Shown one piece after another: positions 4,433 to 29,608 of a stretch of 64,000 nt of DNA. A model generated the notes under the pieces. That model saw only the letters and a program-made list of their open reading frames with translations, was not told the DNA's origin and did not search any database. The translations under genes were made by a program, and so were the position numbers. Every line of letters begins with the position of its first letter. Positions within the stretch are counted from its first letter, which is position 1. Origin of the DNA: Dokdonia sp. (GTDB lineage: Bacteria > Bacteroidota > Bacteroidia > Flavobacteriales > Flavobacteriaceae); NCBI GenBank assembly GCA_020630915.1, contig JAHDIF010000001.1:354786-418785 (forward strand), read 5' to 3'.

Positions 4433-4484
4433 GATGAGTAGCTCGTAGCTTTCGACCAGATCCATTCATCGAAGGATGTACCAT
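4433..4484 (-). promoter_or_regulatory. putative LytTR binding array upstream of GT2-manA (site C)
   Basis: Minus-strand half-sites with a 21-bp period: ATGGTACATC (4484-4475), GGATCTGGTC (4463-4454) and GCTACTCATC (4442-4433). The last resembles ACCACTCATC at the flippase promoter, and the middle one is followed by GAAA as there. The proximal half-site ends 32 bp from the TATGTTTG box. Plus-strand words TCCATTCATC (4461-4470) and ACCATTTACC (4480-4489) also fit the half-site pattern, at a 19-bp spacing, so the divergent gene at 4543 may use the same region. Confidence 0.5.
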
Positions 4485-4542
4485 TTACCGAAAGAGGTAT
4501 CTTTACCTTATCATAAGAAAGGGTATCTTTTCATATACATAT

Positions 4543-7500
4543 ATGGAGTCTAAAACAAATAAATACTTAATCACAGCCATCCTCTTGGGAATGATTTTCC
4601 ATGGAGCGTCTATGTTTTTTACACTAGAAAGAACTTATGATGCGCTTATTCATTTGTTTTTTGCAAATCACTACGCTACGAGCTGGTTTGAACCTTGGAA
4701 CTATAGTTGGTACACCGGTTTTACCGTGATGGGATATCCTCCTTTAGTGCATCAGACCATCGGCGCGTTATCGTATATAGGAGGTCTCAAATTTGGAATG
4801 TTTACGGTAGCGCTTATAGGCGTACTTCTATTTATTACAGGTGTGTATCGCTTTACACAAGTGCTTATCCCAAACAAAAAAGTGGCAGGCTATGCCGCAA
4901 TTCTGGCCGTATTTTCCTCTTCCTTTATAGAAACCCTTCATATTTTTGGCCAGTTGCCCAGTATCATAGGGATCTCTGTTTTAATGCACGCACTTCCAGA
5001 AATATATCTCTGGACGAAGACAGGTCTTAAAAGTCACCTTTTTAAGGCGCTTGCGCTTCTGGCAGTCACGGTTACTTCGCATCACGTGACGCCTATATTT
5101 GGAATGGTATTTTTCATTTTTCCGCTCTTAGGAATGGTAGTAATGGATGCGGCTCGGGAAAAGGTTAAATCTAATAGAGAGGTAACTATTTTTACTTTCG
5201 CGAAAGCGTTATACACACACCTCAATCGTATCATGCTATTTGGTGCTTGCTCGCTCGTACTGATTATAGGTTGCATTCTTCCGTATTGGATTAACACCAA
5301 AAACAACCCGATTACACAAGTGCCTATACCACACGGATCACGAGATAACTTTCTGGAGGTTGCCTCATCTGGACTGGTGTTTTTTGTAATTCCGTGGGGG
5401 ATTTTGCTCTTTCTTTTGCCTTATTTCTTTTACAGATATTATAGCAAACGACTGCTGTTTTTTGGAATTTCATTTACCCTACTATTTGTTCTAGGAACAG
5501 GTGGCACTACGTCCATTCCGCTTAAAATACTGGGAGAAAATGCCTTTAATATCCTCACACTCGACCGTTTTACCTTATGGGCATCTATAATGGCCTTGCC
5601 TGTTTTTGGGGAGTTTTGTTACCGCTTTGTAGAAGGCGATTACAAAGTATACTTACAATCTAAATGGGGTGCCTTTACACATAGATTATCTGGCGGATTT
5701 CTTGTGATGCTTTTTATAGGCATTGCTTTGTTTACGATGACTTTAGGCAAGTTCAGACCAAGCCAACCAGACCCTATAAAAATGACACCTATCGTTAATT
5801 TTTTAAATGAAGATGAGCATTATAAATGGCGATATTTGCCATTAGGCTTTGGCGATCAAATGGCATGGCTTTCTGCACAAACAAAAGCCACTACCGTAGA
5901 TGGCGATTACCATTCTGCAAGGAGGCTTCCAGAACTTACCACGCGTGCTGTAGAACGCCTAGAAAACTCTAAATATAGAGGAATAGAAGGCATTGGATCA
6001 CTCCAACAATTTCTTACAGTACCGGAAAAATACAATCTTAAATATGTCTTTTCTAATGACAAATTTTATGACCCATTGCTCTACTTTACAGGATGGCACA
6101 GGCTTAGTTTATTAGAAAATGGTATAATGGTTTGGGAAAAGGCTGGCGTGGCTCCATTACCTAGTGTATTGCCTAAAGAAGAGGTCTCTTTGTACCTCAA
6201 ACTTATGTGGGGCATCATCCCATTTGCTACTGTAATTATTGCTTTTTTACTTCAATTAAAAGCCTTGTGGAAAAGGTCATTGGTAAGAGATAATACGCCG
6301 CCTGTTTACTTCAATTTTAAGCAAGTGTATAAAAAAGCACCAGGTATCTTGTACAATAGTTCCATATTATGGACAGGAATCTTAATGGTTCTTATCTCTT
6401 GGAGTGGATACCTTTTTTATATTAAAAATACGGCACAGCTATCTCCAGATAATGTCGTAAAAGCCTATTATGATGCGATAGATTTTAAAGAATTTGAGCG
6501 TGCTCACTCCTATTTAGATCCAGCTAGTGATAAAACATTATCTCAGTTTATGCTCGAAATATCTGTATCCGACGGACTCCTTAGTTCCTATGCAAAACTA
6601 GATGGCCTAGCTGTTGTTACTAAACTTAAATCAGATACCACTGCACAAGCGCATGTAGATGCAAAATGGGTAACTCCGCTTAAAGAAATTAGTACTCAGG
6701 ATGAGCTCATACTTATTAAACGTGAAGGCAAATGGCACATTGAACCAAAACAGGTAGACCCAGATATCCCGCCAGAACAATTATTAATACAAAGTGGCAC
6801 CACCTATTACAATCACGGGAAAAGATCGGTAACCTCTGAGCAAACATTTCACGAAGATGTATTAAAACAACCTGTCGTAGAAGTACTCTCTACAAGACTC
6901 GTGCAACTGGATAGCAGCTATGCGATTGTAGGTACTATCCAGAATGTAGATAATGTGCCTGCAGATATTTCGGTTACGGGAGCATTGTACGATTCCGATA
7001 ATAACGAACTAGCGCGCTTTAATGCCAAAGATGTTGTTAAGCATAAATTGCTTCCTAAAGAAATAACACCGTATCGCATCAATTTTGAAGGCATTGCTTG
7101 GCAGCATAAAAGTGAAGAAAAACCAGCAACCTACAATCCTAATCTTTTTATAGATATTGACCTAGCAGAAACTCCTGTCAATTTTGAAATTCAAGTTGCG
7201 GCTAATGTCGCGACAACAGATTTATATCAGTCCATAGCCGTCTCAAATGTTAGGCAAGAAAAAGAGCAATTAAAGGGTTTCTTATTTAATCCCAGTATGG
7301 AAGAAGCTACTATTCCGCAATTGCTTATTAGCTATTATAATCAAGACAAAGAACTCTTATGGGTCGAGTCAAAATATATAGACGAAAGTGTGCGACAACA
7401 GCGCAAAAGACCTTTTTCAGAATCGTTGCACAGCAAGGCATTGCCTATTGAAATTAAATCAGGATTGCGCACAGCCTCAGTAAATGGATTGCCTAATGAG

Positions 7501-7629
7501 AGTATTTCCAATAAAGTGGTACCCGAACGCAATGAGTCAGGAATTAATGAGCATTTTATAGCTATAAGAAATATGTCATATAGCTATATTACAATTAAAG
7601 CTAATAACTACGTAGGAAACCTCAACTAA
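4543..7629 (+). CDS. large multi-spanning membrane protein, 6-PTPS-related/GT-C-like
   Basis: 1028 residues. The first 400 or so hold about ten membrane segments. The early periplasmic loop with YDALIHLFFANHY and WSWYTGF/MGYPPL-like words resembles the 6-pyruvoyl-tetrahydropterin-synthase-related membrane family (PF10131), which I regard as GT-C-type glycosyltransferases using lipid-linked sugars. Further segments lie near 550-575 and 600-625. After about residue 640 comes a periplasmic part with an NTF2-like stretch (VVKAYYDAIDFKEFERA through EGKWHIEP) and a beta-rich C-terminus. It overlaps the next gene by one base (TAATG), so three genes form one operon. A TTTCGCGAAA copy encodes TFAKAL near residue 220. 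The substrate is not known; attachment or polymerisation of the local polysaccharide is an inference. Confidence 0.65.
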   Translation: MESKTNKYLITAILLGMIFHGASMFFTLERTYDALIHLFFANHYATSWFEPWNYSWYTGFTVMGYPPLVHQTIGALSYIGGLKFGMFTVALIGVLLFITGVYRFTQVLIPNKKVAGYAAILAVFSSSFIETLHIFGQLPSIIGISVLMHALPEIYLWTKTGLKSHLFKALALLAVTVTSHHVTPIFGMVFFIFPLLGMVVMDAAREKVKSNREVTIFTFAKALYTHLNRIMLFGACSLVLIIGCILPYWINTKNNPITQVPIPHGSRDNFLEVASSGLVFFVIPWGILLFLLPYFFYRYYSKRLLFFGISFTLLFVLGTGGTTSIPLKILGENAFNILTLDRFTLWASIMALPVFGEFCYRFVEGDYKVYLQSKWGAFTHRLSGGFLVMLFIGIALFTMTLGKFRPSQPDPIKMTPIVNFLNEDEHYKWRYLPLGFGDQMAWLSAQTKATTVDGDYHSARRLPELTTRAVERLENSKYRGIEGIGSLQQFLTVPEKYNLKYVFSNDKFYDPLLYFTGWHRLSLLENGIMVWEKAGVAPLPSVLPKEEVSLYLKLMWGIIPFATVIIAFLLQLKALWKRSLVRDNTPPVYFNFKQVYKKAPGILYNSSILWTGILMVLISWSGYLFYIKNTAQLSPDNVVKAYYDAIDFKEFERAHSYLDPASDKTLSQFMLEISVSDGLLSSYAKLDGLAVVTKLKSDTTAQAHVDAKWVTPLKEISTQDELILIKREGKWHIEPKQVDPDIPPEQLLIQSGTTYYNHGKRSVTSEQTFHEDVLKQPVVEVLSTRLVQLDSSYAIVGTIQNVDNVPADISVTGALYDSDNNELARFNAKDVVKHKLLPKEITPYRINFEGIAWQHKSEEKPATYNPNLFIDIDLAETPVNFEIQVAANVATTDLYQSIAVSNVRQEKEQLKGFLFNPSMEEATIPQLLISYYNQDKELLWVESKYIDESVRQQRKRPFSESLHSKALPIEIKSGLRTASVNGLPNESISNKVVPERNESGINEHFIAIRNMSYSYITIKANNYVGNLN

Positions 7630-10373: not shown

Positions 10374-11576
10374 TTAAGCCGCTATTTGTACTTCTTCATT
10401 ATTCGTTAGTGGCCTTTCTGCAAAAACATCCAGATACATTTCCGTAATTCTGCTCATTGGTAATGCTGTGGCCGCTTGGTAATTGGATTTAGCTATTTGG
10501 TTTCTATAATTTTCATTAGTAACCAAATTTTGGATAGCTGTTGCAAGACTATTTACACTTATTGGATTAAAGAATTCTCCTCTATATCCTTCTTCTTTTA
10601 CGAGAATACTTAAGTCTCCAAGATCTGGCATTACCACGGCTTTACCGTAACTTCCGGCTTGATGTAGCACACCAGAACTTCCTGTTGTAGACGTATAAGG
10701 AAATACTACCATAGCACTTTCAGAAAAAATTACAGGCACATCCTCTTCTTCTACATACCCTGTAAAAGTGAGATTGGGAACATTAGTATATTTTGTTTTT
10801 ACGGCTTCCAAATATCCTGGAGTATTAGGGCTATCCGTACCTGCGATTACGATTTCTAATTCACGATCTGTTTTTTGTCTCACTTGTTGTACAGCTTCGA
10901 TTAGGATTTCTACCTTTTTGTAGGTGCCAAATTTCCCAAAAGTCATAATTTTCAGAGGTCCTTCAGGCAGCTCATACGAAGGCTCTTCTGGAATTTCAAA
11001 AGTACCGTGAGGAATGAGCACGCAGTTCTGGGCGTTGTATTTGTCTTCAAGAATGTCTACGTATTTGCTTATTGTAAGTGCAACGGTATCTGCTTTAAGA
11101 ACCACTCGTGTAAGCATCTCGCCTATAAAATTAAAAGCTTTTGCCTTTATCTTATTACTTGTAAAACCTGCACTGCTCAAATCTACCGTCTCCATAATGT
11201 TATGAAGGAGCACTGTAGTTTTCACCTTCATTAGTTTAGAAACCCAAGGAGAGAAAAGCCCCAAAGCTGCAGGAACCTTTTTATCTCCAAATTTCATAAA
11301 CTGCAGGTTATACAATACAGCATCTGGTTGAGTATTTTTTATGGCTTTTGCGATAGATATCACGTTTGTCAACCCATTAAATTTCCAACATTGCTTTACA
11401 GTGATTGTACACCCTTCTTCTTCAAAAGTGATGTCTGCGTCATCAGGAGTTACATCTGTAAGTAATACTAATTCTGTTACTTCTTGATGCTGGCGAAAAT
11501 GCTTTACTAAGTGATATGCATATTCGTTAAGTGTTACTTTACTCGGTGGATAGGCCGTTACGATTGCTAATTTCAT
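10374..11576 (-). CDS. GT-B fold glycosyltransferase (group 1 / GT4-like)
   Basis: 400 residues. The N-terminal half begins MKLAIVTAYPPSKVTLNEYA, typical of the acceptor domain. The C-terminal half has PLKIMTFGKFGTYKKVEILI, followed by VIAGTDSP, then FPYTSTTGSSGVLHQAGSYGK, which replaces the usual E-x7-E nucleotide-sugar site with an SGVL variant. Cytosolic, no signal peptide. It lies 36 bp after the STAS-like gene on the same strand and probably shares the LytTR-linked promoter upstream of that gene. It ends one base from the convergent hydrolase gene. The donor sugar cannot be read from sequence. Confidence 0.8.
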   Translation of the reverse strand: MKLAIVTAYPPSKVTLNEYAYHLVKHFRQHQEVTELVLLTDVTPDDADITFEEEGCTITVKQCWKFNGLTNVISIAKAIKNTQPDAVLYNLQFMKFGDKKVPAALGLFSPWVSKLMKVKTTVLLHNIMETVDLSSAGFTSNKIKAKAFNFIGEMLTRVVLKADTVALTISKYVDILEDKYNAQNCVLIPHGTFEIPEEPSYELPEGPLKIMTFGKFGTYKKVEILIEAVQQVRQKTDRELEIVIAGTDSPNTPGYLEAVKTKYTNVPNLTFTGYVEEEDVPVIFSESAMVVFPYTSTTGSSGVLHQAGSYGKAVVMPDLGDLSILVKEEGYRGEFFNPISVNSLATAIQNLVTNENYRNQIAKSNYQAATALPMSRITEMYLDVFAERPLTNNEEVQIAA

Positions 11577-11952: not shown

Positions 11953-11960
11953 CAAATTTG
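11953..11960 (-). promoter_or_regulatory. -7 like box (CAAATTTG) upstream of the STAS-like gene
   Basis: Minus-strand CAAATTTG differs from TAnnTTTG only at the first base. It lies 40 bp from the start codon and 32 bp downstream of the proximal LytTR-type half-site, the same gap as at the other sites. Confidence 0.4.
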
Positions 11961-11992: not shown

Positions 11993-12023
11993 GATTGATC
12001 GACAATTACTGTAGACGAACGGT
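11993..12023 (-). promoter_or_regulatory. putative LytTR binding site upstream of STAS-GT pair (site E)
   Basis: Minus-strand half-sites ACCGTTCGTC (12023-12014) and TCGATCAATC (12002-11993) start 21 bp apart. The first nine bases of the first, ACCGTTCGT, match the published LytTR half-site pattern [TA][AC][CA]GTTN[AG][TG] at every position. The linker begins TACAGTAA, shared with the flippase site. Confidence 0.6.
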
Positions 12024-12036
12024 AATTTTCTTTCGA

Positions 12037-13290
12037 TTATGCTATTTTGCTGCTACGCTGTGAGAAGAAAAAATAAGCCACTTGAGCTAGCAGTAAGGTT
12101 CCCATAGCAATCACTTGAGCAATCACTACTTGGAACAGACTATTATGAAAACCAGCAATTAAAACCACTTGTAATACCCCAAAAACTGCGGCGATCACAA
12201 TAGGCTTGTAATGATCGAGAGATAAATAGTAGTAAGCAAAAATATTAGAGAGAGCAAAAAAAGAAGTGGCTAAGGCATACCAGCCTAGTAAAGGTGCAAT
12301 TGAGATATACTGTTCACCAAACAGCAGTTGTACCGCAAGAGAGGGAAACAAAAACGTAAAAGCCACAATGGCACTGGCAAGTGCAGTAATATATCCCACA
12401 TATTTTAGTAAGACTGGAACCGAGTTTTTGCCTTCTTTGCGCATAGAAACTACTGTAGGCAATAGCAACATGACAAACATCCAGGTTACAAAATAAACTA
12501 CTCTACCTATAAGCGCTAGCGAGGCGTATAATCCAGCGTCGTATGATGGGAAATAATGTTTTACTAATAGGATATCACTATTGTTACATATGATTTGGGT
12601 AAGTTCATAACAAGCAGTAAGTACAAAAAACTGTAAAATTATTTTGTTCTCTTTAGTTGAAAATGATGTGTGTGATACCCTTTTAGTGTTCATTTTTTTT
12701 AAGGGAAAGACACCAGCAATAAATGAAATTGCAATGGCACTAGACACGGCAATCGAGGAGTTTATATTGAAGATAAGTAATAAGGCAAATGTGAGCGCCA
12801 GTCTGCAAACCATTTCTAATTGATAGGTTACAGAGAGTTGTATGAAGGCCTTTTTACCTTGTAAGGTCCCTCTATTAACACTCATAATAAAGTAAATAGG
12901 TACAGCCAATCCAAAAATGGTAAACATCACAGAAGATTCTGTTTGAAATAGTTGCTGTAATTCTGTCGCAAAAATGACAATTGCCGCTCCTAATGCGAGA
13001 CCAAAACGAGAGGCCTGTTTAAAAGCTCGATGCGTAAACGCCTCTTGTTTTTGATCATCAAACTCGGTAGTGAATTTTGCCACCGCAAGTTGAAAAGTCA
13101 TCGCTACAAAAGATAATACTAGCATAAGCGTGATTAGTATAGCGGCATCTGCAAAAGCACCTGGACCTAAAACACGCCCTAAAGCTAGGTTGTATAGATA
13201 GTTTCCTCCATTTACCACAAAAGCACTCGCCATAAATACTTGTTCTGGCGTAAGAGCTTTTCTTATTTTTTGTTGGATTGCGATCATCAC
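12037..13290 (-). CDS. polysaccharide flippase (Wzx/MOP superfamily)
   Basis: 417 residues with about twelve membrane segments and the layout of MOP-superfamily lipid-linked oligosaccharide flippases: N-terminal FMASAFVVNGGNYLYNLALG, then GRVLGPGAFADAAILITLML as in Wzx/PST proteins. It would move a lipid-linked glycan across the inner membrane. Either of the two first methionines could be the start. The start lies 160 bp from the nearest -7-like box, so the leader is long. It has its own LytTR-type site upstream (13491-13521). No Wzy polymerase or Wzz chain-length protein is recognisable nearby. Confidence 0.8.
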   Translation of the reverse strand: MMIAIQQKIRKALTPEQVFMASAFVVNGGNYLYNLALGRVLGPGAFADAAILITLMLVLSFVAMTFQLAVAKFTTEFDDQKQEAFTHRAFKQASRFGLALGAAIVIFATELQQLFQTESSVMFTIFGLAVPIYFIMSVNRGTLQGKKAFIQLSVTYQLEMVCRLALTFALLLIFNINSSIAVSSAIAISFIAGVFPLKKMNTKRVSHTSFSTKENKIILQFFVLTACYELTQIICNNSDILLVKHYFPSYDAGLYASLALIGRVVYFVTWMFVMLLLPTVVSMRKEGKNSVPVLLKYVGYITALASAIVAFTFLFPSLAVQLLFGEQYISIAPLLGWYALATSFFALSNIFAYYYLSLDHYKPIVIAAVFGVLQVVLIAGFHNSLFQVVIAQVIAMGTLLLAQVAYFFFSQRSSKIA

Positions 13291-13450
13291 TTTTAATGTG
13301 TAAGTAATTGGATGACTGGCTTATCTATCTTTTTGTGTACGAGATTAAGTGTACATCTAGGTACGGGATCGTACGTATTGTGTACAATTCTTAATGTGTT
13401 TGTGTTGTTAATTACGGTAAGTCCCATAGTTTTGTTCTTTAATTATGATA

Positions 13451-13458
13451 CAAATATG
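13451..13458 (-). promoter_or_regulatory. -7 like box (CATATTTG) upstream of the flippase gene
   Basis: Minus-strand CATATTTG, one mismatch from TAnnTTTG, 32 bp downstream of the proximal LytTR-type half-site. If used it leaves a leader of roughly 150 bases before the flippase start. Confidence 0.35.
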
Positions 13459-13490: not shown

Positions 13491-13521
13491 GACCAATTGA
13501 ATTTTACTGTAGATGAGTGGT
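13491..13521 (-). promoter_or_regulatory. putative LytTR binding site upstream of flippase gene (site D)
   Basis: Minus-strand half-sites ACCACTCATC (13521-13512) and TCAATTGGTC (13500-13491) start 21 bp apart, with linker TACAGTAAAAT whose first eight bases equal those of the STAS-GT site. The site lies in a 521-bp stretch without a confirmed gene (13291-13811), which otherwise holds only the hairpin repeats described next. Confidence 0.55.
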
Positions 13522-13595: not shown

Positions 13596-13627
13596 CATCT
13601 CCACCCAGCCTCCTCTTCAAAGAGGAG
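13596..13627. repeat. solo copy of the CATCTCC/GAGGAG hairpin repeat
   Basis: CATCTCCACCCAGCCTCCTC followed by TTCAAAGAGGAG. The CTCCTCTTCAAAGAGGAG part is a hairpin. It has no inverted partner of its own and may be a decayed half of the element seen twice further right. Confidence 0.7.
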
Positions 13628-13700
13628 TAGCAGTGTAGTTCTTTACTTGAAAAAGGGATGTGGAATTCAAATTGTGTGATGCCACTCTTTCCCTATAAGA

Positions 13701-13814
13701 CATCTCCTCCCAACCTCCTCTTCAAAGAGGAGGAGCAATAGGTCATTTCTGTATTAAATATTCCTTTATGAGGAGTGGTAAAAGCCCCTCTTTTTAAGAG
13801 GGGTTGGGGAGATG
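13701..13814. repeat. MITE-like element, copy 1 (left of the DUF559 gene)
   Basis: The left end reads CATCTCCTCCCAACCTCCTC then TTCAAAGAGGAGG. The right end, 13785-13814, is the inverted form: CCCCTCTTTTTAAGAGGGG then TTGGGGAGATG. The two ends are near-perfect inverted repeats about 114 bp apart overall, each with an inner hairpin. The last bases overlap the first ATG of the DUF559 frame. There is no coding potential inside. Confidence 0.7.
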
Positions 13815-14234: not shown

Positions 14235-14274
14235 TTATAAGTGCTGTTGCACATGCCACTCTTTGCCTGTAGGA

Positions 14275-14361: not shown

Positions 14362-14423
14362 CTTTTGTGCTGCTTTTCACCTCCAACAAGCTCTAATCTC
14401 ACCATCCTAAATCATTCAACCTC

Positions 14424-14454
14424 CACCAATCGACCATAAGTGTAGACGAGTTGC
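14424..14454 (-). promoter_or_regulatory. putative LytTR binding site upstream of TPR/barrel gene, inverted (site F)
   Basis: Read on the minus strand the half-sites are GCAACTCGTC (14454-14445) and TCGATTGGTG (14433-14424), 21 bp apart, with a linker starting TACA as in sites D and E. The gene it precedes is on the plus strand, so the site is inverted relative to the others. It lies 61-92 bp before the chosen start codon at 14516. No clean TAnnTTTG box is seen on either side; TATAACTTG at 14488 is the nearest. Confidence 0.4.
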
Positions 14455-14515
14455 ACGTACCCTCAGATTGAAACCTTGGTATCTGGGTATAACTTGCCAT
14501 TGTAAAACAATCACA

Positions 14516-16522
14516 ATGAGAACACTTGTAATTATATGCGTCTTTTTAATAAGTAGTCAATCGTACGGACAAGATATGTCTGCAGGGTTTACCTTATTAG
14601 AAACGGGAAAGTATCAAGAAGCTAAACGCTTTTTTGAAAACATTCTGAAGACTGCTCCCGATAATAAAACCGCACGGCTTTGTTACGGACGCGCGTTAGG
14701 ATTGAGTGGTGACAGCACTGCTGCCAGAACACACTTTAGCTCTCTAAAAACTGACTTTCCTCAGGATTATGAAGTAGCACTCAATTATGCCGAATCCTTA
14801 TTATGGGACAAGGACTTTAGCAGCGCAAAAACGGTTTACCAAAAACTCATTGCGCAAGACAGTACCAGTTTTTCGGCTTTATTAGGATATGCCAATACTC
14901 TTTCTAATCTTAAGGAATATAATAACGCCCTTACGTATGTAACCAAAGCCCTGAACCAACAACCCGGAAATGCCAATGCACTCATCTCCAAAAAATATAT
15001 GATACTCGGTAAGGCAGCTATCCTCTCTCAAAGCTTTCAGTATGAAGATGCGGTGACTTTGTTACGTACTGCTTTACAAACCACACCGCAAGATGCCCAA
15101 CTTATTAGCGCACTCGCAAATACCTATATCGCACAGCAAGCATACGACAGTGCTCTTGAGCAGTATACTTCACTTACAGATACACTTAGCTCACGTGTGG
15201 GTATGTCTCTAGTGGCGCATTTACAAAAAAAGGATAAACGCGCCTTAGCATATGCAGCGGAAGCTCTCGCTTTCGCGAAAGCGAAAAAAATAGACAGTAC
15301 CCGATTAATCACAGCTAGCGAACGCTATATCCAAGCCTTGATCTGGAATGGCAACTATAGAGAAGCAAGATCTGCCATTGCTAGCCTAACAACCACTTAT
15401 CCCACAAACAATCGTGTAGCGGCACTAGAAGCTACCTTAGGAATGTATACAGGAACCTTCTCAAAAAGTATTGCAGTTTACAAAGCGATGCTAGAAAAAG
15501 ACAGCACTTCTTTTGACGGCAATCTAGGCATCGCAAATGCATATCGTGCACAAGGCAATCTGGATAAGGCAACCGCTTTCGCGAAAAAAACTCTGGACTT
15601 CTATCCCAATCAAAAGGATGCTACCGCACTTCTACAAACCATAAAAAACAGCTTATCTCCTACTGTAGAGGCGCGCGCTTCTTATACCAAAGACAATGGC
15701 GATAACGAAGCTTATGCAACGGGAGCCACTGCAACACTTCCATTTTCTGACCGATTTAGAACCATTTTCTCATATACCTACAGAGAAACCGAAAATAAGA
15801 CAACCCAAAATATGGCTTACAATACCAATGCTTCTATAGGAGCACATTACCGTGTGCATAACAACACTTGGATAGAAGGCACACTAGGTTTTGTAAAAGC
15901 AAACGCTAGTGCTAATGATTTTACCGATGTTAATGGGAACGTGTTTATCAAGTCTAGACCGTTACCCTTACAATATCTAGAAGTTGGCTATAGCCGCAAC
16001 TTGCAGGATTTTAATGCAGCGCTTATAGATGAAAAAATATTTATGAATAACTACGTGCTCAATTACAATATGGGCACCAATATTAATCTAGGTTGGTATA
16101 CGGGACTAATGCACACCCAACAAACCGATAGCAATAGCCGCAACCTGCTATTTAGTTCGCTGTACTATACATTTACAAAAAGTCCAGCCCTTAAAGGTGG
16201 CATTAATTACCAATACTTGAGCTTTGTAAACCAAGTACCTACCTTATATTTTAGCCCCTCAAGATACCAAGCGGCAGAGCTATTTATAGACCTTAGCGGT
16301 ACTGCTGGAAAATGGAGCTATGCCGCAAACGCTGCTGGCGGTTTACAACAAGTTGAGAATGATAAAGCCACCACACTTTTTCGCTTAGAAGGAAAACTCA
16401 ACTATACCTTTTCTAACCGCTTTGAAGCAGGCGCTTACGGCAAGTATAGCAATATCGCTTCTGCTACGGCTGCTGGGTTTGAGTTTATGGAAGTTGGGGT
16501 GAGAGTTTTGGGGAGGTTTTGA
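14516..16522 (+). CDS. TPR protein with C-terminal outer-membrane beta-barrel (polysaccharide export type)
   Basis: 668 residues from the ATG giving MRTLVIICVF, chosen because it starts a signal peptide ending near SYGQ; the longer frame upstream lacks one. Residues about 20-390 are tandem TPR repeats (GKYQEAKRFFENILKTAPDN and similar). Residues 400-668 alternate in the manner of an outer-membrane barrel and end in the aromatic VLGRF. This layout resembles PgaA, BcsC or YaiO-type exporters, so it could pass the polysaccharide through the outer membrane. Two TTTCGCGAAA copies encode AFAKA and AFAKK within the TPR part. The final 59 bp are duplicated at 17944, marking an insertion. Confidence 0.7.
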   Translation: MRTLVIICVFLISSQSYGQDMSAGFTLLETGKYQEAKRFFENILKTAPDNKTARLCYGRALGLSGDSTAARTHFSSLKTDFPQDYEVALNYAESLLWDKDFSSAKTVYQKLIAQDSTSFSALLGYANTLSNLKEYNNALTYVTKALNQQPGNANALISKKYMILGKAAILSQSFQYEDAVTLLRTALQTTPQDAQLISALANTYIAQQAYDSALEQYTSLTDTLSSRVGMSLVAHLQKKDKRALAYAAEALAFAKAKKIDSTRLITASERYIQALIWNGNYREARSAIASLTTTYPTNNRVAALEATLGMYTGTFSKSIAVYKAMLEKDSTSFDGNLGIANAYRAQGNLDKATAFAKKTLDFYPNQKDATALLQTIKNSLSPTVEARASYTKDNGDNEAYATGATATLPFSDRFRTIFSYTYRETENKTTQNMAYNTNASIGAHYRVHNNTWIEGTLGFVKANASANDFTDVNGNVFIKSRPLPLQYLEVGYSRNLQDFNAALIDEKIFMNNYVLNYNMGTNINLGWYTGLMHTQQTDSNSRNLLFSSLYYTFTKSPALKGGINYQYLSFVNQVPTLYFSPSRYQAAELFIDLSGTAGKWSYAANAAGGLQQVENDKATTLFRLEGKLNYTFSNRFEAGAYGKYSNIASATAAGFEFMEVGVRVLGRF

Positions 16523-23930: not shown

Positions 23931-23938
23931 CAAAACTA
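23931..23938 (-). promoter_or_regulatory. -7 promoter box (TAGTTTTG) of the T9SS protein gene
   Basis: Minus-strand TAGTTTTG matches TAnnTTTG exactly, 27 bp upstream of the start codon. No -33 element is evident; the LytTR-type array lies 31 bp upstream of it instead. Confidence 0.55.
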
Positions 23939-23969: not shown

Positions 23970-24021
23970 GTTAAGGGAATTTGTTACTTCGGTAGATGGT
24001 CGTTTGTTGTAGACCAGTGGT
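23970..24021 (-). promoter_or_regulatory. putative LytTR binding array upstream of the T9SS gene (site A)
   Basis: Minus-strand half-sites ACCACTGGTC (24021-24012) and ACCATCTACC (24000-23991) start 21 bp apart; a third, weak position is TTCCCTTAAC (23979-23970). The pair closely resembles ACCATTGGTC / ACCATCCACC upstream of the signalling operon. It begins one base beyond the stop codon of the LytTR regulator. Confidence 0.6.
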
Positions 24022-24022
24022 T

Positions 24023-24742
24023 TTATAACAAATTGAGACGACGCATTAATTCTGGTCTATTAGATCTACTAATTGGCACCACATCTCTTTCAATAAGTAC
24101 GCTATTATCTTCTATATCTATAATGCGTTTAAAATTAATAACGTAAGATCTATGCACTTTTAAAAACAAGCTGTCTGGAAGTTTTTCTTCTATCTTTTTA
24201 AGGGTAGAATGTACGGTATAACTCTTATCATCTGTCTTGATTAAAATATAATCTCCCTTAGCTTCAATAAGGTATATTTTATCAAACTCAATCTTTATAA
24301 GACGTCTGTCTATATTTACATACATCTCCTTTTCTGTAGACGCATCAGATGGTGGTGCAGCAGTTGGAACAGCTTTGCTAGCCGCAGGTGCTTTAAAACT
24401 TTGCACTTTAGTCATTGCCTTCATAAAGCGCGGTAAAGTGATAGGTTTTACGAGATAGTCTACAATGCAATCGTACTCAAAGGCTTCTATTGCAAAATTA
24501 CGATCTGAAGTCGTGAGCACTATTTTAGGCGGATTCTTAAGCGTGTCTATAAAATCAAATCCGGTAAAGTCAGGCATATGGATATCCAAGAATATAAGGT
24601 CTATCTCGTTCTTGTTTAGGAATTTTATCGCCTGCATCGCATTAGGAAACTGGTCTATCACGTGCAAGTCTTCTACCTGTTCACATAGGTGTGCAACAAT
24701 TGTTCTTGCCGCCATTTCATCATCTACTATAATACAATTCAA
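24023..24742 (-). CDS. LytTR-family response regulator
   Basis: 239 residues. N-terminal receiver domain: CIIVDDEMAA with Asp7/Asp8/Glu9, phosphoacceptor Asp53 in LIFLDIHMPDF, and Lys99 in YLVKPI. A linker rich in Ala and Pro (about 115-130) leads to a LytTR DNA-binding domain (about 138-239: VNIDRRLIKIEFDKIYLIEA, LFLKVHRSYVINF, VPISRSNRPEL). LytTR proteins bind direct repeats spaced about 21 bp and often control extracellular polysaccharide, fimbriae or toxins. It is the last gene of the signalling operon and the natural output of the phosphorelay encoded upstream. Direct repeats of the expected spacing lie upstream of this operon and several polysaccharide genes. Confidence 0.92.
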   Translation of the reverse strand: MNCIIVDDEMAARTIVAHLCEQVEDLHVIDQFPNAMQAIKFLNKNEIDLIFLDIHMPDFTGFDFIDTLKNPPKIVLTTSDRNFAIEAFEYDCIVDYLVKPITLPRFMKAMTKVQSFKAPAASKAVPTAAPPSDASTEKEMYVNIDRRLIKIEFDKIYLIEAKGDYILIKTDDKSYTVHSTLKKIEEKLPDSLFLKVHRSYVINFKRIIDIEDNSVLIERDVVPISRSNRPELMRRLNLL

Positions 24743-24762
24743 AGCTTCAGTATGTTTGTTCG

Positions 24763-25089
24763 TTATTCCAACGATAAAGTAAGCAGAAATTCTTGAATTC
24801 TCTGTAAAATATCTTCAAAATCTTTGCGCAGCTCTGTTTTCTCTTTTAGTAATTGCTCTTCATAGTCTATCGCAATCTGGTAGCTTTTTTCTAATCCTAG
24901 AATCCCGAATTTATGTTTGATTTTATGTACGTTTTCGGCCGCTTTCGCGAAAGCGTGCTTCTCCATATTCCCTTCGTAAATAACCTTCTCCTCCGGAAAT
25001 TCTTGAACGACTACCGCAAGTAGCTTTTTTTCAAAAGCTTTATCACCCCCAGAAAGCTGTTGGACATATGAAAGATTAGGTTGCTCCAT
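24763..25089 (-). CDS. histidine phosphotransfer (HPt) protein
   Basis: 108 residues, all helical. ENVHKIKHKFGILGLE carries the HxxK-x-x-G layout of HPt domains, with His55 the likely phosphorylated residue. HPt proteins shuttle phosphate between kinase receivers and response regulators. It overlaps the upstream kinase gene by 14 bp and precedes the LytTR gene by 20 bp, so it may link the two kinases to the LytTR receiver. A TTTCGCGAAA copy at 24940-24955 encodes AFAKA (residues 46-50), just before the active histidine and apparently tolerated in the helix. Confidence 0.8.
   Translation of the reverse strand: MEQPNLSYVQQLSGGDKAFEKKLLAVVVQEFPEEKVIYEGNMEKHAFAKAAENVHKIKHKFGILGLEKSYQIAIDYEEQLLKEKTELRKDFEDILQRIQEFLLTLSLE
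24940..24955. repeat. TTTCGCGAAA palindrome inside the HPt gene
   Basis: Full 16-bp copy CGCTTTCGCGAAAGCG inside the coding region, read as AFAKA a few residues before the catalytic histidine. It is given its own entry because of this position; the other coding copies are listed in the finding on this repeat. Confidence 0.9.
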
Positions 25090-26242
25090 GGCTATTTTTT
25101 GCTAATGTAAAGTAAAATGTAGTCCCTACACTTTCTTCACTTTCTAGCCAGATCTTTCCTTGATACATTTCGACAATTTTTTTAACGATAGAAAGGCCTA
25201 TTCCTGTAGAGGTCTCGCTGGTTTCTAGCTTTTCGAATACTTTAAAGATCTTTTTGAAATATGGGTCCGGAATTCCTTTCCCATTATCTTGTATATAAAA
25301 CTCCCAAAAAGCTCCTTTTTCTTGTGCGCCTACGACGATTTTTCCTTCTGGCTTGTCGTTGTAGGCAACGGCATTGCCTATTAAATTTTGAAATAGCTGT
25401 TGCAATCTGTATTTATCGCCTATAATAGTAGGGAGGATAGCTGTATTTATGGCTATGTGATCTGGTACTTCTATTAACGATAAAATATCTTTTACTAATA
25501 GGTTGAGATCTACTGGGTAGGCCTCGATATGGGTCTTTCCAATAGTTGAGTATTCTAATATACCACTAATAAGGGTATCCATTTTTTCTACACTGTTGCG
25601 TATGGATATGATCTGTTTATTACCTGATTCATCCAGTTTACTAGCATAGTCTTCTTGCAACCAGGTGGTAAGTGTATCTATACTTCTCAAAGGAGATTTA
25701 AGGTCATGAGATACCATATGTGCATAATCACTGAGCTCTTGGTTTTGTATCTCTAAACTGTGTAATAATTGCTGCTGTTGTCTAAAGGCTTTACACGCCT
25801 TTAAGTTTACAGAAAACTTCTTTATCACCGGACGCAATTGCGCCAAATCTTTCTCAGAAATATTGTCCTTTTTAGAATACAAAAATAAATAACCTTGATC
25901 TTGAAGATTAAAAATGGCAACCATCCCTTCTTCCAGATTTAATGGAGAAATACTCGAAATGAGGTCGGTTCTCTTTACAATCGTACTCTCTTCAATATCG
26001 CGGGTTACTTGTATCACACTGTCTGCATCAACAACTGTTTTTTGCCCTAAAGGGATCGCGTATGTAGACTGATAATTCTCATCTTTTTTCTCAAGGATCC
26101 AAGCAGCATTAAGATTTTTACGCTTGAGCAATAGCTTTATAAATAAATCACAACTCTCTCTATAATCTAGCGACTGGCCTATGGCCATCCCGTACTCGTG
26201 GAGTTGTAAAATATCTAATATGTGGTTTTCTACTTTGATCAT
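25076..26242 (-). CDS. sensor histidine kinase (partner of FIST protein)
   Basis: 388 residues, no membrane segment. The N-terminal 150 residues look GAF-like (SCDLFIKLLLKRKNLNAAWI), followed by a short helix and a HisKA domain with the H-box YAHMVSHDLKSPLRSI near residue 185. The HATPase_c domain has NLIGNAVAYND (N box), DNGKGIPD (G1) and TGIGLSIVKKIV (G2). It overlaps the FIST gene by 4 bp (ATGA) and the HPt gene by 14 bp. The arrangement FIST protein then soluble kinase matches NosP-linked kinases, where the haem-bound FIST protein controls autophosphorylation. It shares its kinase core with the paralogue at 27338. Confidence 0.88.
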   Translation of the reverse strand: MIKVENHILDILQLHEYGMAIGQSLDYRESCDLFIKLLLKRKNLNAAWILEKKDENYQSTYAIPLGQKTVVDADSVIQVTRDIEESTIVKRTDLISSISPLNLEEGMVAIFNLQDQGYLFLYSKKDNISEKDLAQLRPVIKKFSVNLKACKAFRQQQQLLHSLEIQNQELSDYAHMVSHDLKSPLRSIDTLTTWLQEDYASKLDESGNKQIISIRNSVEKMDTLISGILEYSTIGKTHIEAYPVDLNLLVKDILSLIEVPDHIAINTAILPTIIGDKYRLQQLFQNLIGNAVAYNDKPEGKIVVGAQEKGAFWEFYIQDNGKGIPDPYFKKIFKVFEKLETSETSTGIGLSIVKKIVEMYQGKIWLESEESVGTTFYFTLAKNSHGAT

Positions 26243-27336
26243 TCAAATAAACCAACTACGGTTGTTTTATTATAAAACTCTAAAAACCCTTCTCCATAGG
26301 ATGAGATTTCTCCTAGCGTGAGGGCGCCACCTATAGACAAATCTGGATAACTCCCATGTATGGTTTCTGTAATCGCGTTTAACTCTTGTTCAAAACTATC
26401 TTCTAGAAATAGAATTCGGGAGATACAATCTATAATGATTGCTTTTCTTGGAGCTGTAGCCTTCTGGACACTTGCTTCTGCAGCTTTTTGAGCAGCGTCT
26501 ATAAGAGAGTCATTATTACCGTTTAAAATGTCTACGAGCATATTTTCTTCTAGCTCGCCTACACACACGAGTTCTCCATTTTCATTGGTCATTAATGGAT
26601 CCCGTACGATACATTCTGCATCTTCTTTTAAGATTCCAAAAGGATACCCTTTTGCAATATCAAAGAAATTATCTTCTGTAAATATTAATCCAGAGTGTTC
26701 TTCTACCACCTCTTTATATACCTGGAAAGGGTTTTTCCAGTTGATCTCTTTAATAATGTTCCCTTCTGATTTTGTAACAATAAAAGGGCCGCCTACCTTT
26801 TTCCAACCGTGACGTACACCTATGTTAGAAGCCATATTCATAACTGCTACCACAGCAGCATCTTGATATATCCCTTTGTTACAAAAAACACAAGGCTGTT
26901 GCTCTAAAGAAAGACTTCCTGCTCCGCCTCCAAAATAATTAGTTTGCATCCCGTAGTTTTCATAAAGCTCGCTGAGATAATGAGAAATGTTAGACGTAAG
27001 TCCATCTACATAGGTAAATAAACTATACGGTTGATTCTCTTTAAACGTAATTTCTGGGATGGTGTACTCCTTAGTGCTAATATTCTCAACTAGAAAGAGG
27101 GTTTCTAAATTATTGAGGGTATTAATAACGATACCCTTTTCTAACACTGTGTTCCCGTGAATAACTCTTGGAAACAAACCTCCCATAAACTCAAGTCCAG
27201 ATTGCTGTAGTGCTCCTACAAATTCTTTAATATCAATTTCGGTGTGTTCTCCTACAGAGATAAGTACTGCATTGTCATTTACGTGCGCCGAGATCGCAGT
27301 GATAATCTCGTCAATATTTGTTGTAGATATAAGCAT
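26239..27336 (-). CDS. FIST-domain protein (NosP-like candidate NO sensor)
   Basis: 365 residues with FIST N and FIST C domains: FMGGLFPRVIHGNTVLEKG in the N-terminal half, YFGGGAGSLS at the domain join near 160, and a C-terminal part with GYPFGILKED and LSIGGALTLGEISS. FIST proteins are ligand sensors placed next to signal-transduction genes; a subgroup called NosP binds haem and nitric oxide. Whether this one binds haem cannot be told from sequence. Direct linkage to a histidine kinase (4-bp overlap), and the presence of an H-NOX gene in the same operon, favour a NosP-like role. Confidence 0.8.
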   Translation of the reverse strand: MLISTTNIDEIITAISAHVNDNAVLISVGEHTEIDIKEFVGALQQSGLEFMGGLFPRVIHGNTVLEKGIVINTLNNLETLFLVENISTKEYTIPEITFKENQPYSLFTYVDGLTSNISHYLSELYENYGMQTNYFGGGAGSLSLEQQPCVFCNKGIYQDAAVVAVMNMASNIGVRHGWKKVGGPFIVTKSEGNIIKEINWKNPFQVYKEVVEEHSGLIFTEDNFFDIAKGYPFGILKEDAECIVRDPLMTNENGELVCVGELEENMLVDILNGNNDSLIDAAQKAAEASVQKATAPRKAIIIDCISRILFLEDSFEQELNAITETIHGSYPDLSIGGALTLGEISSYGEGFLEFYNKTTVVGLFE

Positions 27337-27337
27337 A

Positions 27338-28549
27338 TTATTTTTTTAAAGTGAAAAAGAAGGTCGCACCTATTCCAGGAGTACTGTCTATCCAAATGTC
27401 GCCTTCGTGAAGGCTCACTATTTTTTTTACGATAGAAAGTCCTATTCCCGTAGAGTCCTCCCGCTTATTTAACGTATTGAATATCTTAAAGACCTTGTCT
27501 TGAAACTTGGGTTCGATTCCTATTCCGTTATCTTTAATAGAAAACCTGTAGTGGCTTTCCAGATCTAGCACGTCTATCTCGACAAAGCCTTTTTCTTTGT
27601 CATTAAACTTGATCCCATTACTAATAAGGTTTTGAAATACTTGCTGCAACTTGGTTTTATCGCCTAGTACTGTTGGCAGTTTGTGCATCACTTTGATTTC
27701 AATATGTTCTGGAACAAATAATATGGGTATCAGATCTGAGACTAGAGAATTCAAGTCTACTTGTTCTGCAATATTGTTATCTGCTGCAACACTGGAATAA
27801 TTTAAAACATCAGAAATAAGCAACTCCATCTTTTCTAATGTTGTCTGTATAAGTGAGAGGTTTTGCTCACTTGCCGCATCTAATTTTCCCTTATTATCTT
27901 CCTTAATCCAACTTACGAGGGCATCTATACTTCTTAAAGGAGATTTTAAATCGTGCGATACAATATGCGCATATTCTTGTAATTCCTCATTACTTTTTTC
28001 CAGTTTAAGGAGCAATCTTTCTTTTTGATTCTCTAGATTCTTTAATTCGGTAATATCGCGCACAATCCCTTGAGCAGCGATGGGACTATTGCTCTCGTCA
28101 TAAATTAAACTCGCGTTTATATGAACCAAACGCTCACTCTTATCTGCAATGACAATTTTTACCTGAAAGTCTGTAACCGCACCGTCTTCTAATAAAGTGG
28201 CAAACCCTGCAACTACCTTTTCTTGTTCTTGAGGATGCACCATTTGCATCAGATTGATTGAATCTTCTATAGTATATCCTAAAAGATTTTCTGCCGCTTC
28301 ATTCATTTTCAGCACGTCACCCATAAGATTCATCACGACATAGGCATCTACAATATTCTCAAAAACCCCTTTAAGCTGCGTGGTTTTTTCTCTAACCAGC
28401 AGTTCCAACCTTTTATTTAATTCTTCTAACTCTTGTGATTTAAAATAAAGTTCGCGAGATTTTTCTTCTAGAATTTGCTCTGCAGCCTTTCTAGCAGCTT
28501 TTTCTCTTACGATTGCACGTTCTAAAATTTTTACCTGCCTATCCTTCAT
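27338..28549 (-). CDS. PAS-domain sensor histidine kinase (partner of H-NOX)
   Basis: 403 residues. An N-terminal coiled coil (about 1-58, REKAARKAAEQILEEKSREL) leads into a PAS domain (about 60-175, with NEAAENLLGYTIED and a PAC-type GIVRDITELK), then HisKA with H-box YAHIVSHDLKSPLRSI near 200 and a HATPase_c domain (NLISNGIKFND, DNGIGIEP, TGIGLSIVKKIV). It overlaps the H-NOX gene by 11 bp. Coiled-coil starts of this type are common in flavobacterial kinases encoded after H-NOX, where the sensor binds and inhibits the kinase. Soluble. It probably feeds the HPt protein. Confidence 0.88.
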   Translation of the reverse strand: MKDRQVKILERAIVREKAARKAAEQILEEKSRELYFKSQELEELNKRLELLVREKTTQLKGVFENIVDAYVVMNLMGDVLKMNEAAENLLGYTIEDSINLMQMVHPQEQEKVVAGFATLLEDGAVTDFQVKIVIADKSERLVHINASLIYDESNSPIAAQGIVRDITELKNLENQKERLLLKLEKSNEELQEYAHIVSHDLKSPLRSIDALVSWIKEDNKGKLDAASEQNLSLIQTTLEKMELLISDVLNYSSVAADNNIAEQVDLNSLVSDLIPILFVPEHIEIKVMHKLPTVLGDKTKLQQVFQNLISNGIKFNDKEKGFVEIDVLDLESHYRFSIKDNGIGIEPKFQDKVFKIFNTLNKREDSTGIGLSIVKKIVSLHEGDIWIDSTPGIGATFFFTLKK

Positions 28550-29084
28550 TTGCTGTTATACTAAACTTGACTTCTGTTCCCTGCTCATTTAGTTTTTCAA
28601 TGATAATAGTCGCTTTCTGATTAAAGTGATCAAAAGCCATATTCATTAGGCCTTTTCCAAAGGCGTGCATCGCCCTACTGGACTTATAAATCATAATTAA
28701 ATGGGTCTGAGACTGCTCTTCTATCGTAAATGTAGGCAACTCTGCATCTGGATAAATTTTTCTCACCTCAACGTGTATATGGTCTTCAATAGAAGCAAGC
28801 ATCTCTATGGGATCTTTATATAACTCTAAAAAACCCGGGTAACTCTTTTTGATCACACTAAAAAAATGCTCTCCATATACGAGTAATAAATAGTCTACAG
28901 GAATTGCAGTTTCTTTGTTAAGATTGGTAAGAAGAGATACCATTTCTCCAAAACTATAGGTCCCCACAGCAGTATAAACCCCATTAAATGGCAACTCAGA
29001 ATTACTGATGATGGTGTCTACCATTTCTAGACCAAATTTTTCCTCAACCAATTCTAAAAATTCTGTAAATACGATTCCTTTCAT
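28539..29084 (-). CDS. H-NOX (haem NO/O2-binding) domain protein
   Basis: 181 residues, a stand-alone H-NOX. The likely proximal haem ligand is His104 in the helix IHVEVRKIYPDAELP, matching the IHxxV-x-K-x-YPDA pattern of bacterial H-NOX. The haem-propionate motif YxSxR is present as YKSSR (Tyr133, Ser135, Arg137). Such proteins sense nitric oxide at picomolar to nanomolar levels and control a partner kinase or cyclase; in Shewanella and Vibrio they tune biofilm through kinases. It overlaps the kinase gene downstream by 11 bp and the receiver gene upstream by one base. The distal tyrosine typical of O2-binders is not evident, favouring NO. Confidence 0.88.
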   Translation of the reverse strand: MKGIVFTEFLELVEEKFGLEMVDTIISNSELPFNGVYTAVGTYSFGEMVSLLTNLNKETAIPVDYLLLVYGEHFFSVIKKSYPGFLELYKDPIEMLASIEDHIHVEVRKIYPDAELPTFTIEEQSQTHLIMIYKSSRAMHAFGKGLMNMAFDHFNQKATIIIEKLNEQGTEVKFSITANEG

Positions 29085-29494
29085 TATGCTTTTATTAATT
29101 CAATCATACTCCAATATGCCAATAATTTTTCGATTTTCTCTATATAGTGCTCATATTTTAAAGGTTTTAAAACATATCCTGCAATTCCAGCTTTATAACA
29201 CTCCAGTAAATCTTTTTGATTATTGGAAGTGGTTAAAATAATAGTTGGAATATATTGAAGTCTGTTATCTCCTTTTAAAATCTTTAGAAATTCAACGCCA
29301 TTAATCTTAGGCATATTTAGATCTAATAAAATAATATCTGGTAGGTTATCTTTTTGCTCAAGAAGTTGTAGCGCATCCTCACCATTATTGGCCTCGATAA
29401 TTTTATGCTTATGACCAAATGAGTTACAAACTCTTTTGAGCTTCATAACTTCTATTGCATCATCTTCTATTAAAAGAATGTTTAGGGATTTCAT
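29084..29494 (-). CDS. single-domain response regulator (Rcp1-like receiver)
   Basis: 136 residues, a receiver domain alone. Acidic pocket LLIEDDAIE (Glu10, Asp11, Asp12), phosphoacceptor Asp58 in ILLDLNMPK, conserved Thr and Ser in ILTTSNN and Lys in YVLKPL. Without an output domain it is likely to be an intermediate or phosphate sink in the relay, or to act through protein contacts. First gene of the seven-gene operon and the one nearest the promoter carrying LytTR-type site B, so the pathway probably controls its own level. Confidence 0.88.
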   Translation of the reverse strand: MKSLNILLIEDDAIEVMKLKRVCNSFGHKHKIIEANNGEDALQLLEQKDNLPDIILLDLNMPKINGVEFLKILKGDNRLQYIPTIILTTSNNQKDLLECYKAGIAGYVLKPLKYEHYIEKIEKLLAYWSMIELIKA

Positions 29495-29517
29495 ACTATA
29501 ATTTAATTAATATGATG

Positions 29518-29525
29518 CAAATTAA
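29518..29525 (-). promoter_or_regulatory. -7 like box (TTAATTTG) of the signalling operon
   Basis: Minus-strand TTAATTTG, one mismatch from TAnnTTTG, 23 bp before the first start codon and 31 bp from the nearest LytTR-type half-site. Confidence 0.35.
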
Positions 29526-29556
29526 TCGCCTAAAGCACTAGTGTCTTGATTATTTC

Positions 29557-29608
29557 GATTGATCTAATTTTAGTGTCGGTGGATGGTAGAAAAGTGTCGA
29601 CCAATGGT
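29557..29608 (-). promoter_or_regulatory. putative LytTR binding array upstream of the signalling operon (site B)
   Basis: Three minus-strand half-sites at 21-bp steps: ACCATTGGTC (29608-29599), ACCATCCACC (29587-29578) and TAGATCAATC (29566-29557). The first two align closely with site A; the third with TCGATCAATC of site E. It suggests autoregulation by the LytTR protein at the end of the same operon. Confidence 0.6.

Follow-up and report, generated by a model that had tools for sequence, protein, structure and literature searches.

A conserved LytTR-type direct-repeat regulon in Flavobacteriaceae and the nitric oxide-type phosphorelay that probably drives it

A stretch of 64,000 nucleotides from Dokdonia sp. 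(assembly GCA_020630915.1, contig JAHDIF010000001.1, positions 354,786 to 418,785 of the forward strand), here called the window, carries a signalling operon that ends with the gene for a LytTR response regulator. Short direct repeats at 21-bp steps lie upstream of this operon, of genes for exopolysaccharide synthesis and of the gene for a surface protein sorted by the type IX secretion system (T9SS). The favoured reading, to which a probability of about 0.8 is given, is that these repeats mark a LytTR-activated, self-activating and nitric oxide (NO)-responsive regulon for exopolysaccharide and the T9SS-sorted protein. A preliminary description of this DNA had proposed the array and the link to the LytTR protein, and both are strongly supported by the comparisons below; the H-NOX and FIST sensors encoded in the operon had been left unnamed.

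Read base by base, the five units named in that description (the signalling operon, the T9SS gene, the flippase unit, GT2-manA and STAS-GT, the last encoding a 99-aa protein and a glycosyltransferase) carry half-sites near ACCAYTSRTC at a spacing of 21 bp, almost as described (Table 1). At all five, a box lies 31–32 bp past the promoter-proximal half-site, and this -7 box is, as had been stated, exactly TAnnTTTG at two sites and one mismatch away from it at three. What failed was a third register proposed for GT2-manA at 4475–4484, which is empty of a half-site (-12 bits). Half-site quality is uneven: the half-sites at 23979 (T9SS), 29566 (operon), 12002 (STAS-GT) and 4463 (GT2) are low-scoring (-4.6 to 1.8 bits). 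The weakest of the five sites are that of GT2-manA, where the proximal half-site alone is good, and that of STAS-GT, where the second half-site is weak.

The same arrangement is found across the family. The LytTR protein was used to fetch family loci, of which the best 80 of 552 were taken; 73 of these (1.41 Mb) were scanned, six records of the Dokdonia clade and a duplicate (L160) being excluded. At a threshold of at least 14 bits, the scan gave 258 sites and its reversed control gave 0, and 249 of the 258 were intergenic in DNA of which 91% is coding according to a simple open reading frame (ORF) caller. At 12 bits or more, 235 arrays were found, in 69 of the 73 loci. Their targets were the gene for the stand-alone receiver (RR) that opens the operon (76 arrays, within 700 bp before it), flippase genes (41), glycosyltransferase genes (30), T9SS genes (27), STAS genes (3) and others (58), and 39 of the 58 lay directly after lytTR, ahead of a different gene. 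An array within 700 bp before RR occurs in 66 of these 73 non-Dokdonia loci; the seven without it are five Tenacibaculum loci lacking H-NOX and two loci whose contigs stop short of the operon start, and a sixth Tenacibaculum locus lacking H-NOX has retained its array. Across the class, the LytTR protein had a match at E ≤ 1e-60 in 8 of 296 genomes; three of these lie outside the family, one at 69% identity, which may reflect transfer.

A half-site model that has no built-in spacing was applied to 133 upstream regions; of the 95 pairs lying on the same strand within 70 bp, 78 were exactly 21 bp apart. The steps of 21 bp within the arrays (42 of 42) were not used as evidence because the array model forces them. 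The half-sites are oriented, 214 of 232 pointing towards the gene and 18 away from it. Within 100 bp of 234 arrays, there are 84 exact TAnnTTTG boxes, of which 43 lie at 31–32 bp and 35 at 52–54 bp from the last scored 10-mer, with only 6 elsewhere; the two classes are one 21-bp step apart. A box with at most one mismatch stands at one of ten chosen offsets in 193 of the 235 arrays. The earlier opinion that so fixed a spacing is hard to ascribe to chance is upheld, both by the spacing-free pairs and by the 78 of 84 exact boxes at two distances.

Flavobacterial sigma-A promoters have a TTG element at -33. When the 193 array promoters were aligned on the box, TTG was present at -33 in 6.2% of them versus 8.5% expected by shuffling, and TTTG in none; in the same loci, TTG stood at -33 in 3 of 72 array boxes versus 7 of 45 other boxes (p = 0.04). 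In this alignment, information peaks at the half-sites and the box and is low at most positions between them. The further claim of the preliminary description, that the LytTR protein replaces a -33 element, gains modest support from this rarity of TTG, the controls being weak.

The layout resembles that of known LytTR systems (papers are cited here by PMC number). LytTR operators follow the rule of a pair of 9-bp direct repeats 10–13 bp apart (PMC11347149), and the sites in the window and in the family, with their 21-bp period, agree with it. The -7 box occupies -12 to -5 (PMC9723704), so that the repeat pair at these promoters would be centred near -60, as is the AgrA pair (PMC4227749). In self-activating LytTR systems, the repeats lie mostly 10 bp upstream of -35 (PMC6193735). 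Both the centring near -60 and this similarity of position argue for activation and for positive feedback.

Within the window, the pattern ACCAYTSRTC-N11-ACCAYTSRTC with up to 3 mismatches has 4 matches, at three promoters, versus 0.04 expected; as a test this is weak, since the consensus was derived from the same sites. Other loose consensus counts (up to 3–4 mismatches) were near background and were set aside in favour of a model based on relatives: a 33-bp pattern with 3 mismatches gave 8 matches over the genome versus 5 in the reversed control, and with 4 mismatches an opposite-strand spacing of 14 bp was as frequent as 21 bp (4 each), so that signal and noise did not separate. The model used instead (R1) is a sequence-only model of 24 sites from other Dokdonia genomes, with the window excluded; these are the non-identical ones among 31 relatives' sites at the promoters of the RR operon, the T9SS gene and the flippase, the flippase sites of G017, G002 and G015 being left out. 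Over the 2.97-Mb genome, it has four matches at E ≤ 0.05; the top three are the promoters of the flippase (E 1.2e-5), the operon (1.2e-3) and the T9SS gene (4.9e-3), and the STAS site is fifth (E 0.59). The fourth match (C3:69365, E 0.013) was rejected as background: by eye, it lies beside the apparent 3' end of an enolase gene and shows no box in the sequence read. In the window alone, the five sites rank 1, 2, 3, 4 and 6. Common descent helps R1, because it was trained on the orthologous promoters of its three top units; the STAS and GT2 sites were absent from its training.

In the genus, an orthologue of the LytTR protein is present in 13 of 18 Dokdonia genomes and is 71–89% identical in the relatives. 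The array lies 118–120 bp upstream of RR in 12 relatives (for G017 the second-best pair is meant), 117–119 bp before the T9SS gene in 8 relatives and 70–97 bp in 3, and 230–238 bp before the flippase gene in 8 relatives and about 490–550 bp in G002, G015 and G017. A site precedes the gene for the 99-aa protein in all 8 relatives where this gene was found, at 109–130 bp in 7 of them and at 126–147 bp in G006. A model match at E ≤ 1.4e-5 is present in each of the 13 genomes that carry the orthologue. Among the five without it, G008 has no match, G003, G013 and G014 have none better than 0.099, and G009, which is 76% complete, has a flippase site with the same sequence as one in the training set. 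A strict pattern gave 28 matches in the 18 genomes versus 7 in the reversed control.

The link between the sites and this particular LytTR protein is supported by co-occurrence in 149 genomes, one per genus. With the line for an orthologue at E ≤ 1e-70, which was set after viewing the table, and with stricter filters in the site search, a strong site (E ≤ 1e-3) was found in 47 of 64 genomes with the orthologue versus 1 of 85 without it (p 3.6e-23); with Dokdonia excluded, the figures are 46 of 63 versus 1 of 85. The exception, G062 (locus L211), has a strong array together with RR, H-NOX and the PAS kinase; in the 19 kb read, neither Hpt nor LytTR was found, perhaps because both were recently lost from its operon. 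In several genomes, moreover, targets have been relocated and have kept their sites. G002 and G015 have their T9SS and flippase genes on contigs other than that of lytTR; the same is true of the T9SS (56% identical) and flippase (58%) genes of G138 and of the flippase gene (51%) of G142. In G102, which is a single contig of 4.04 Mb, 2.3 Mb separate lytTR (at 0.82 Mb) from the genes for the flippase, the glycosyltransferase and the TPR protein (at 3.10 Mb), and a site precedes the distant glycosyltransferase gene. Among 23 distal matches, tblastn confirmed known targets at L184, L189 and L190, and at L191 and L193 the RR operon; the others were assigned by eye. That relocated targets keep their sites speaks for action in trans rather than for simple co-inheritance.

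The operon reads, from 29494 to 24023, receiver, H-NOX, PAS kinase, FIST protein, kinase, Hpt and REC-LytTR. The phospho-acceptor residues are invariant in the family (counts include the window copy): Asp58 of RR in 77 of 77 aligned sequences (in one of which, L177, the match is the receiver of LytTR itself), His55 of Hpt in 80 of 80 and Asp53 of LytTR in 80 of 80. The Pfam scores of the receiver and LytTR domains of the LytTR protein are far above cut-off, and six of the seven positions of its DNA-binding motif, F-L-K-V/I-H-R-S, are kept in at least 79 of 80. Kinase, receiver, Hpt and receiver-output protein are thus all present with their acceptors, as a His-Asp-His-Asp phosphorelay requires. 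No receiver domain was found on either kinase, and Pfam gave no other DNA-binding domain in the operon. The window's genome has 6 LytTR proteins above cut-off.

H-NOX proteins are marked by a proximal haem histidine and a Y-x-S-x-R motif. The operon protein has the haem fold and both marks: His104, Tyr133 and Ser135 are present in 72 of 72 sequences, and position 137 is Arg in 67 and Lys in 5. Among solved structures, it aligns over 180 residues with 6bde (E 9.4e-80) and 6bdd (6.8e-79); 6BDD is treated as the H-NOX of Kordia algicida (PMC7356049), and Kordia is a genus within Flavobacteriaceae. The FIST protein was filed as FIST because it reaches 29.7 bits (3.3e-7, residues 105–207) with the NCBIfam NosP profile, whose cut-off is 450 bits; it has no solved-structure relative at E ≤ 0.001. 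In a profile search of the 80 loci, H-NOX was found in 72 and FIST in 47; the eight loci without H-NOX are the six of Tenacibaculum and two contigs that end before the gene.

Some loci show variants. In L195 and L200, from two other genera, a site precedes the gene for a DoxX-like membrane protein (named by eye), possibly a further target, and the box, one mismatch from TAnnTTTG, is 28 bp after the model match. L205 and L210 (G132) represent a tandem duplication of Hpt-LytTR in one genome. L193 (G162) has a compact form: about 1.4 kb of DNA behind an array contains a receiver and LytTR, and the stretch gave no match to H-NOX or Hpt.

From these parts, a mechanism can be proposed. Two kinases, informed by H-NOX and the FIST protein, would feed the stand-alone receiver, from which the phosphoryl group would pass to Hpt and then to the LytTR protein (REC-LytTR, 24023–24742), the output of the relay; this order is suggested by the domains. 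Dimers or larger chains of phosphorylated LytTR would then occupy half-sites close to ACCAYTSRTCKA, which follow one another at 21-bp intervals along one face of the DNA. With the last half-site 31–32 bp before the -7 box of a sigma-A promoter, LytTR could contact RNA polymerase and activate promoters without a good -33 element; the placement of the sites is the reason for preferring activation to repression. LytTR would act on its own operon, giving positive feedback, on the neighbouring gene for the T9SS-sorted protein and on the genes for exopolysaccharide, namely those for the flippase, the glycosyltransferases and probably GT2-manA. In Vibrio, NO-bound H-NOX or NosP inhibits the kinase (PMC6769237), and by this analogy, NO would most likely reduce kinase activity and lead to less polysaccharide, although the sign of the effect is a guess.

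A second geometry is found between GT2 and the divergent gene for a 1028-aa protein at 4543. The half-sites facing the latter are 19 bp apart and end 8 bp before a TATCTTTG box (TATCTTTR) in nine relatives; the window copy has one mismatch in the box, which makes 10 of 12 Dokdonia regions examined, the window included. Four further loci in this comparison lacked one or both genes. On the GT2 side, the half-sites obey the 21-bp spacing and the 32-bp box distance, and a strong pair (24–27 bits) is present only in G002 and G015, two of 11 relatives; the pair in the other 9 scores 3–11 bits. The layout at the 1028-aa gene may be a repressing site.

Could the same LytTR sites be repressor operators in general, so that the relay shuts the polysaccharide genes off? 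The half-sites just 8 bp before the box at 4543 suit this idea, as does CoxC, which represses from three direct repeats that overlap the -35 box (PMC11347149). However, at most array promoters, the repeats stop 31–32 bp upstream of the box and leave it uncovered, where the repeats of self-activating LytTR systems (PMC6193735) and the AgrA pair near -60 (PMC4227749) are also placed, and general repression is quite improbable. It is still less probable that another regulator binds the repeats and that LytTR merely travels with the locus: the presence of several LytTR proteins per genome would allow it, but 84 of the 85 orthologue-less genomes have no site at E ≤ 1e-3, though most have other LytTR-type matches, Pfam shows no second DNA-binding domain in the operon, and relocated targets keep their sites. 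As for chance, or residual homology between duplicated promoters, the weak GT2 and STAS half-sites of the window and the near-background loose patterns are what it would predict; the 258 sites with none in the reversed control, the concentration of information in half-sites and box, the box distances and the spacing-free pairs oppose it for the family as a whole, and it can practically be dismissed. The most substantial doubt concerns the signal. The relay could be real and respond to O2 or redox via H-NOX, or to another ligand of FIST; some H-NOX proteins bind O2, the FIST protein is only weakly NosP-like, and six Tenacibaculum loci lack H-NOX. Against this stand the invariant haem His and Y-x-S and the alignment with the Kordia structure, and in the biofilm relays of Vibrio the kinases are regulated by H-NOX and NosP (PMC6769237). 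A signal other than NO is thus possible but unlikely.

Several observations nevertheless count against an NO-responsive regulon activated by LytTR, or at least against its full extent. The 73 loci, drawn in clusters from a few genera, are not independent observations, and within Dokdonia, only G000 is a fair case, since the other 12 of the 13 genomes supplied training sites. Co-occurrence is partly the co-inheritance of one locus, which only the relocated cases escape. No site reaches E ≤ 1e-3 in 17 of the 64 orthologue-bearing genomes; at E ≤ 0.05, a site is present in 59 of the 64, leaving 5 with none, and also in 14 of the 85 without the orthologue, so that the weaker matches contain noise. 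The control set in the -33 comparison is small, and its promoters themselves lack a clear -33 element. Finally, NO is not the signal everywhere, because H-NOX is missing in the six Tenacibaculum loci, five of which also lack the operon array, and FIST was found in 47 of 80 loci.

The system can be compared with several known ones. Like the Vibrio H-NOX/NosP relays (HqsK or VpsS, LuxU, LuxO), in which a soluble haem sensor of NO is paired with a kinase and an Hpt protein and biofilm genes are controlled (PMC6769237), it has a predicted sensor of this type, a kinase, an Hpt and probable control of such genes. Unlike them, the Dokdonia operon encodes kinases on which no receiver domain was found, with a separate receiver and Hpt, and its output is a LytTR protein placed for direct action on polysaccharide promoters rather than LuxO and small RNAs. 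With AgrA, HdrR and BrsR, it shares direct repeats that are spaced by about 21 bp and placed ahead of the core promoter, and probably also positive autoregulation (PMC4227749, PMC6193735), whereas the Dokdonia-type arrays have two to four half-sites, a -7 TAnnTTTG box and little trace of a -33 element, and the input is an NO-type relay instead of a peptide or a membrane inhibitor. RcoM and CoxC, which sense CO, are likewise LytTR outputs of a diatomic-gas sensor with three direct repeats (PMC11347149); CoxC combines sensor and LytTR in one protein and represses, whereas here a relay of several proteins would connect the two.

The Spo0F-Spo0B-Spo0A phosphorelay also has a separate kinase, receiver, phosphotransferase and DNA-binding receiver; the Dokdonia relay differs in its output domain, its ordinary Hpt, its single operon and the absence of sporulation. 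AlgR of Pseudomonas is a LytTR regulator of exopolysaccharide with a different sensor and promoter layout. In the open PMC literature, where subscription papers are mostly missing, no H-NOX-LytTR relay and no such operator in Flavobacteriaceae appeared among the matches listed. H-NOX and LytTR occur together in PMC6769237, whose available LytTR part concerns AgrA nitrosylation and not a relay, and in PMC8396549, in general lists in the part available; PMC5395568 deals with denitrification and gives a count of Flavobacterium LytTR regulators, the two being unconnected in its available text.

Table 1. Repeat sites, -7 boxes and genes in the window (aa, amino acids)
Feature	Position	Strand	Remarks
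Signalling-operon array	29557..29629	-	half-site starts 29629, 29608, 29587, weak 29566; 21-bp steps
Signalling-operon -7 box TTAATTTG	29518..29525	-	one mismatch; 31 bp after proximal half-site
Array before T9SS-sorted protein gene	23970..24021	-	half-site starts 24021, 24000, weak 23979
T9SS-gene -7 box TAGTTTTG	23931-23938	-	exact; 31 bp after proximal half-site
Flippase-unit array	13491..13521	-	half-site starts 13521, 13500
Flippase -7 box CATATTTG	13451-13458	-	one mismatch; 32 bp
STAS-GT site, upstream of 99-aa protein and glycosyltransferase	11993..12023	-	strong 12023, weak 12002
STAS-GT -7 box CAAATTTG	11953-11960	-	one mismatch; 32 bp
Site facing GT2-manA	4433..4463	-	weak half 4463, strong half 4442
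GT2-manA -7 box TATGTTTG	4393-4400	-	exact; 32 bp
Half-site pair 19 bp apart, facing 1028-aa gene at 4543	4461..4489	+	box TATCTTTA at 4498-4505
Extra, sixth site	14422..14455	-	16.5 bits; reverse to, and just upstream of, TPR gene
Stand-alone receiver (RR), Asp58	29084..29494	-	Pfam Response_reg 2.7e-23
H-NOX, predicted haem NO/O2-binding sensor	28539..29084	-	Pfam HNOB 1.5e-38
PAS histidine kinase	27338..28549	-	Pfam
FIST protein, weakly NosP-like	26239..27336	-	Pfam FIST 9.1e-27
Second histidine kinase	25076..26242	-	Pfam HisKA, HATPase_c
Hpt phosphotransfer protein, His55	24763..25089	-	Pfam Hpt 1.5e-4, 22.4 bits, slightly below cut-off 24.6
REC-LytTR response regulator, proposed binder	24023..24742	-	Pfam LytTR 1.1e-19, Response_reg 4.8e-18
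T9SS-sorted surface protein, 857 aa	21330..23903	-	DUF6923, Por_Secre_tail
TPR protein, perhaps export porin	14468..16522	+	BcsC/PgaA-like matches below cut-off
Polysaccharide flippase	12037..13290	-	Pfam Polysacc_synt_3 1.4e-12
Glycosyltransferase family 1	10374..11576	-	–
GT2 glycosyltransferase	3542-4357	-	within GT2-manA unit 2484..4357
Mannose-6-phosphate isomerase (manA)	2484-3512	-	within GT2-manA unit

The window and related loci have some further features. The label STAS given earlier to the 99-aa protein is not borne out, the protein having no Pfam match at E ≤ 0.001 and no STAS match at E ≤ 1; in L109, the flippase unit begins with a gene that encodes a STAS domain (4.8e-10). In the window, the first gene after the flippase array is a small ORF of 44–46 aa (13293–13427, minus strand; MGLTVINNTN...), which is conserved in Patiriisocius, Nonlabens and Leeuwenhoekiella loci, while many other loci have in its place an ORF of 92–98 aa that is STAS by Pfam in the one tested. 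The 1028-aa protein and a 411-aa protein match no Pfam family at E ≤ 1. Sequence similar to the sixth site occurs in loci L069 and L149, and the real start of the TPR gene is probably near 14516. Between the T9SS gene and the polysaccharide genes lies a probable restriction-modification pair (18626–21163, minus strand), consisting of a C-5 cytosine methylase and a protein with an NgoFVII-like DNA-binding domain. Short palindrome-like repeats, CTCCTCTTCAAAGAGGAGG, surround a DUF559 gene (13600–13812 and 14270–14370) and are also present in the matching intergenic region of the relative L069 (16400–16900).

The conserved LytTR-type regulon is real, and an NO relay probably drives it. A wider picture has about even odds: two types of NO sensor, H-NOX and FIST, would converge on one self-activating four-step phosphorelay, common in Flavobacteriaceae, which through LytTR would drive a distinct class of sigma-A promoters that has a ladder of half-sites every 21 bp on one face of the helix in place of a -33 element. 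Exopolysaccharide export and the T9SS-sorted protein would thereby be set together, as a Bacteroidota counterpart of the cyclic di-GMP and quorum-sensing outputs of H-NOX in Proteobacteria. For the control of surface polysaccharide in Flavobacteriaceae, which are common marine and soil bacteria, the analysis supplies a defined operator and a list of targets, together with candidates for the regulator and the signal. A structure of the Kordia H-NOX exists, and the regulon supplies a testable function for its relatives. The rule of a proximal half-site 31–32 bp from TAnnTTTG can be used to seek LytTR-activated promoters in other Bacteroidota.

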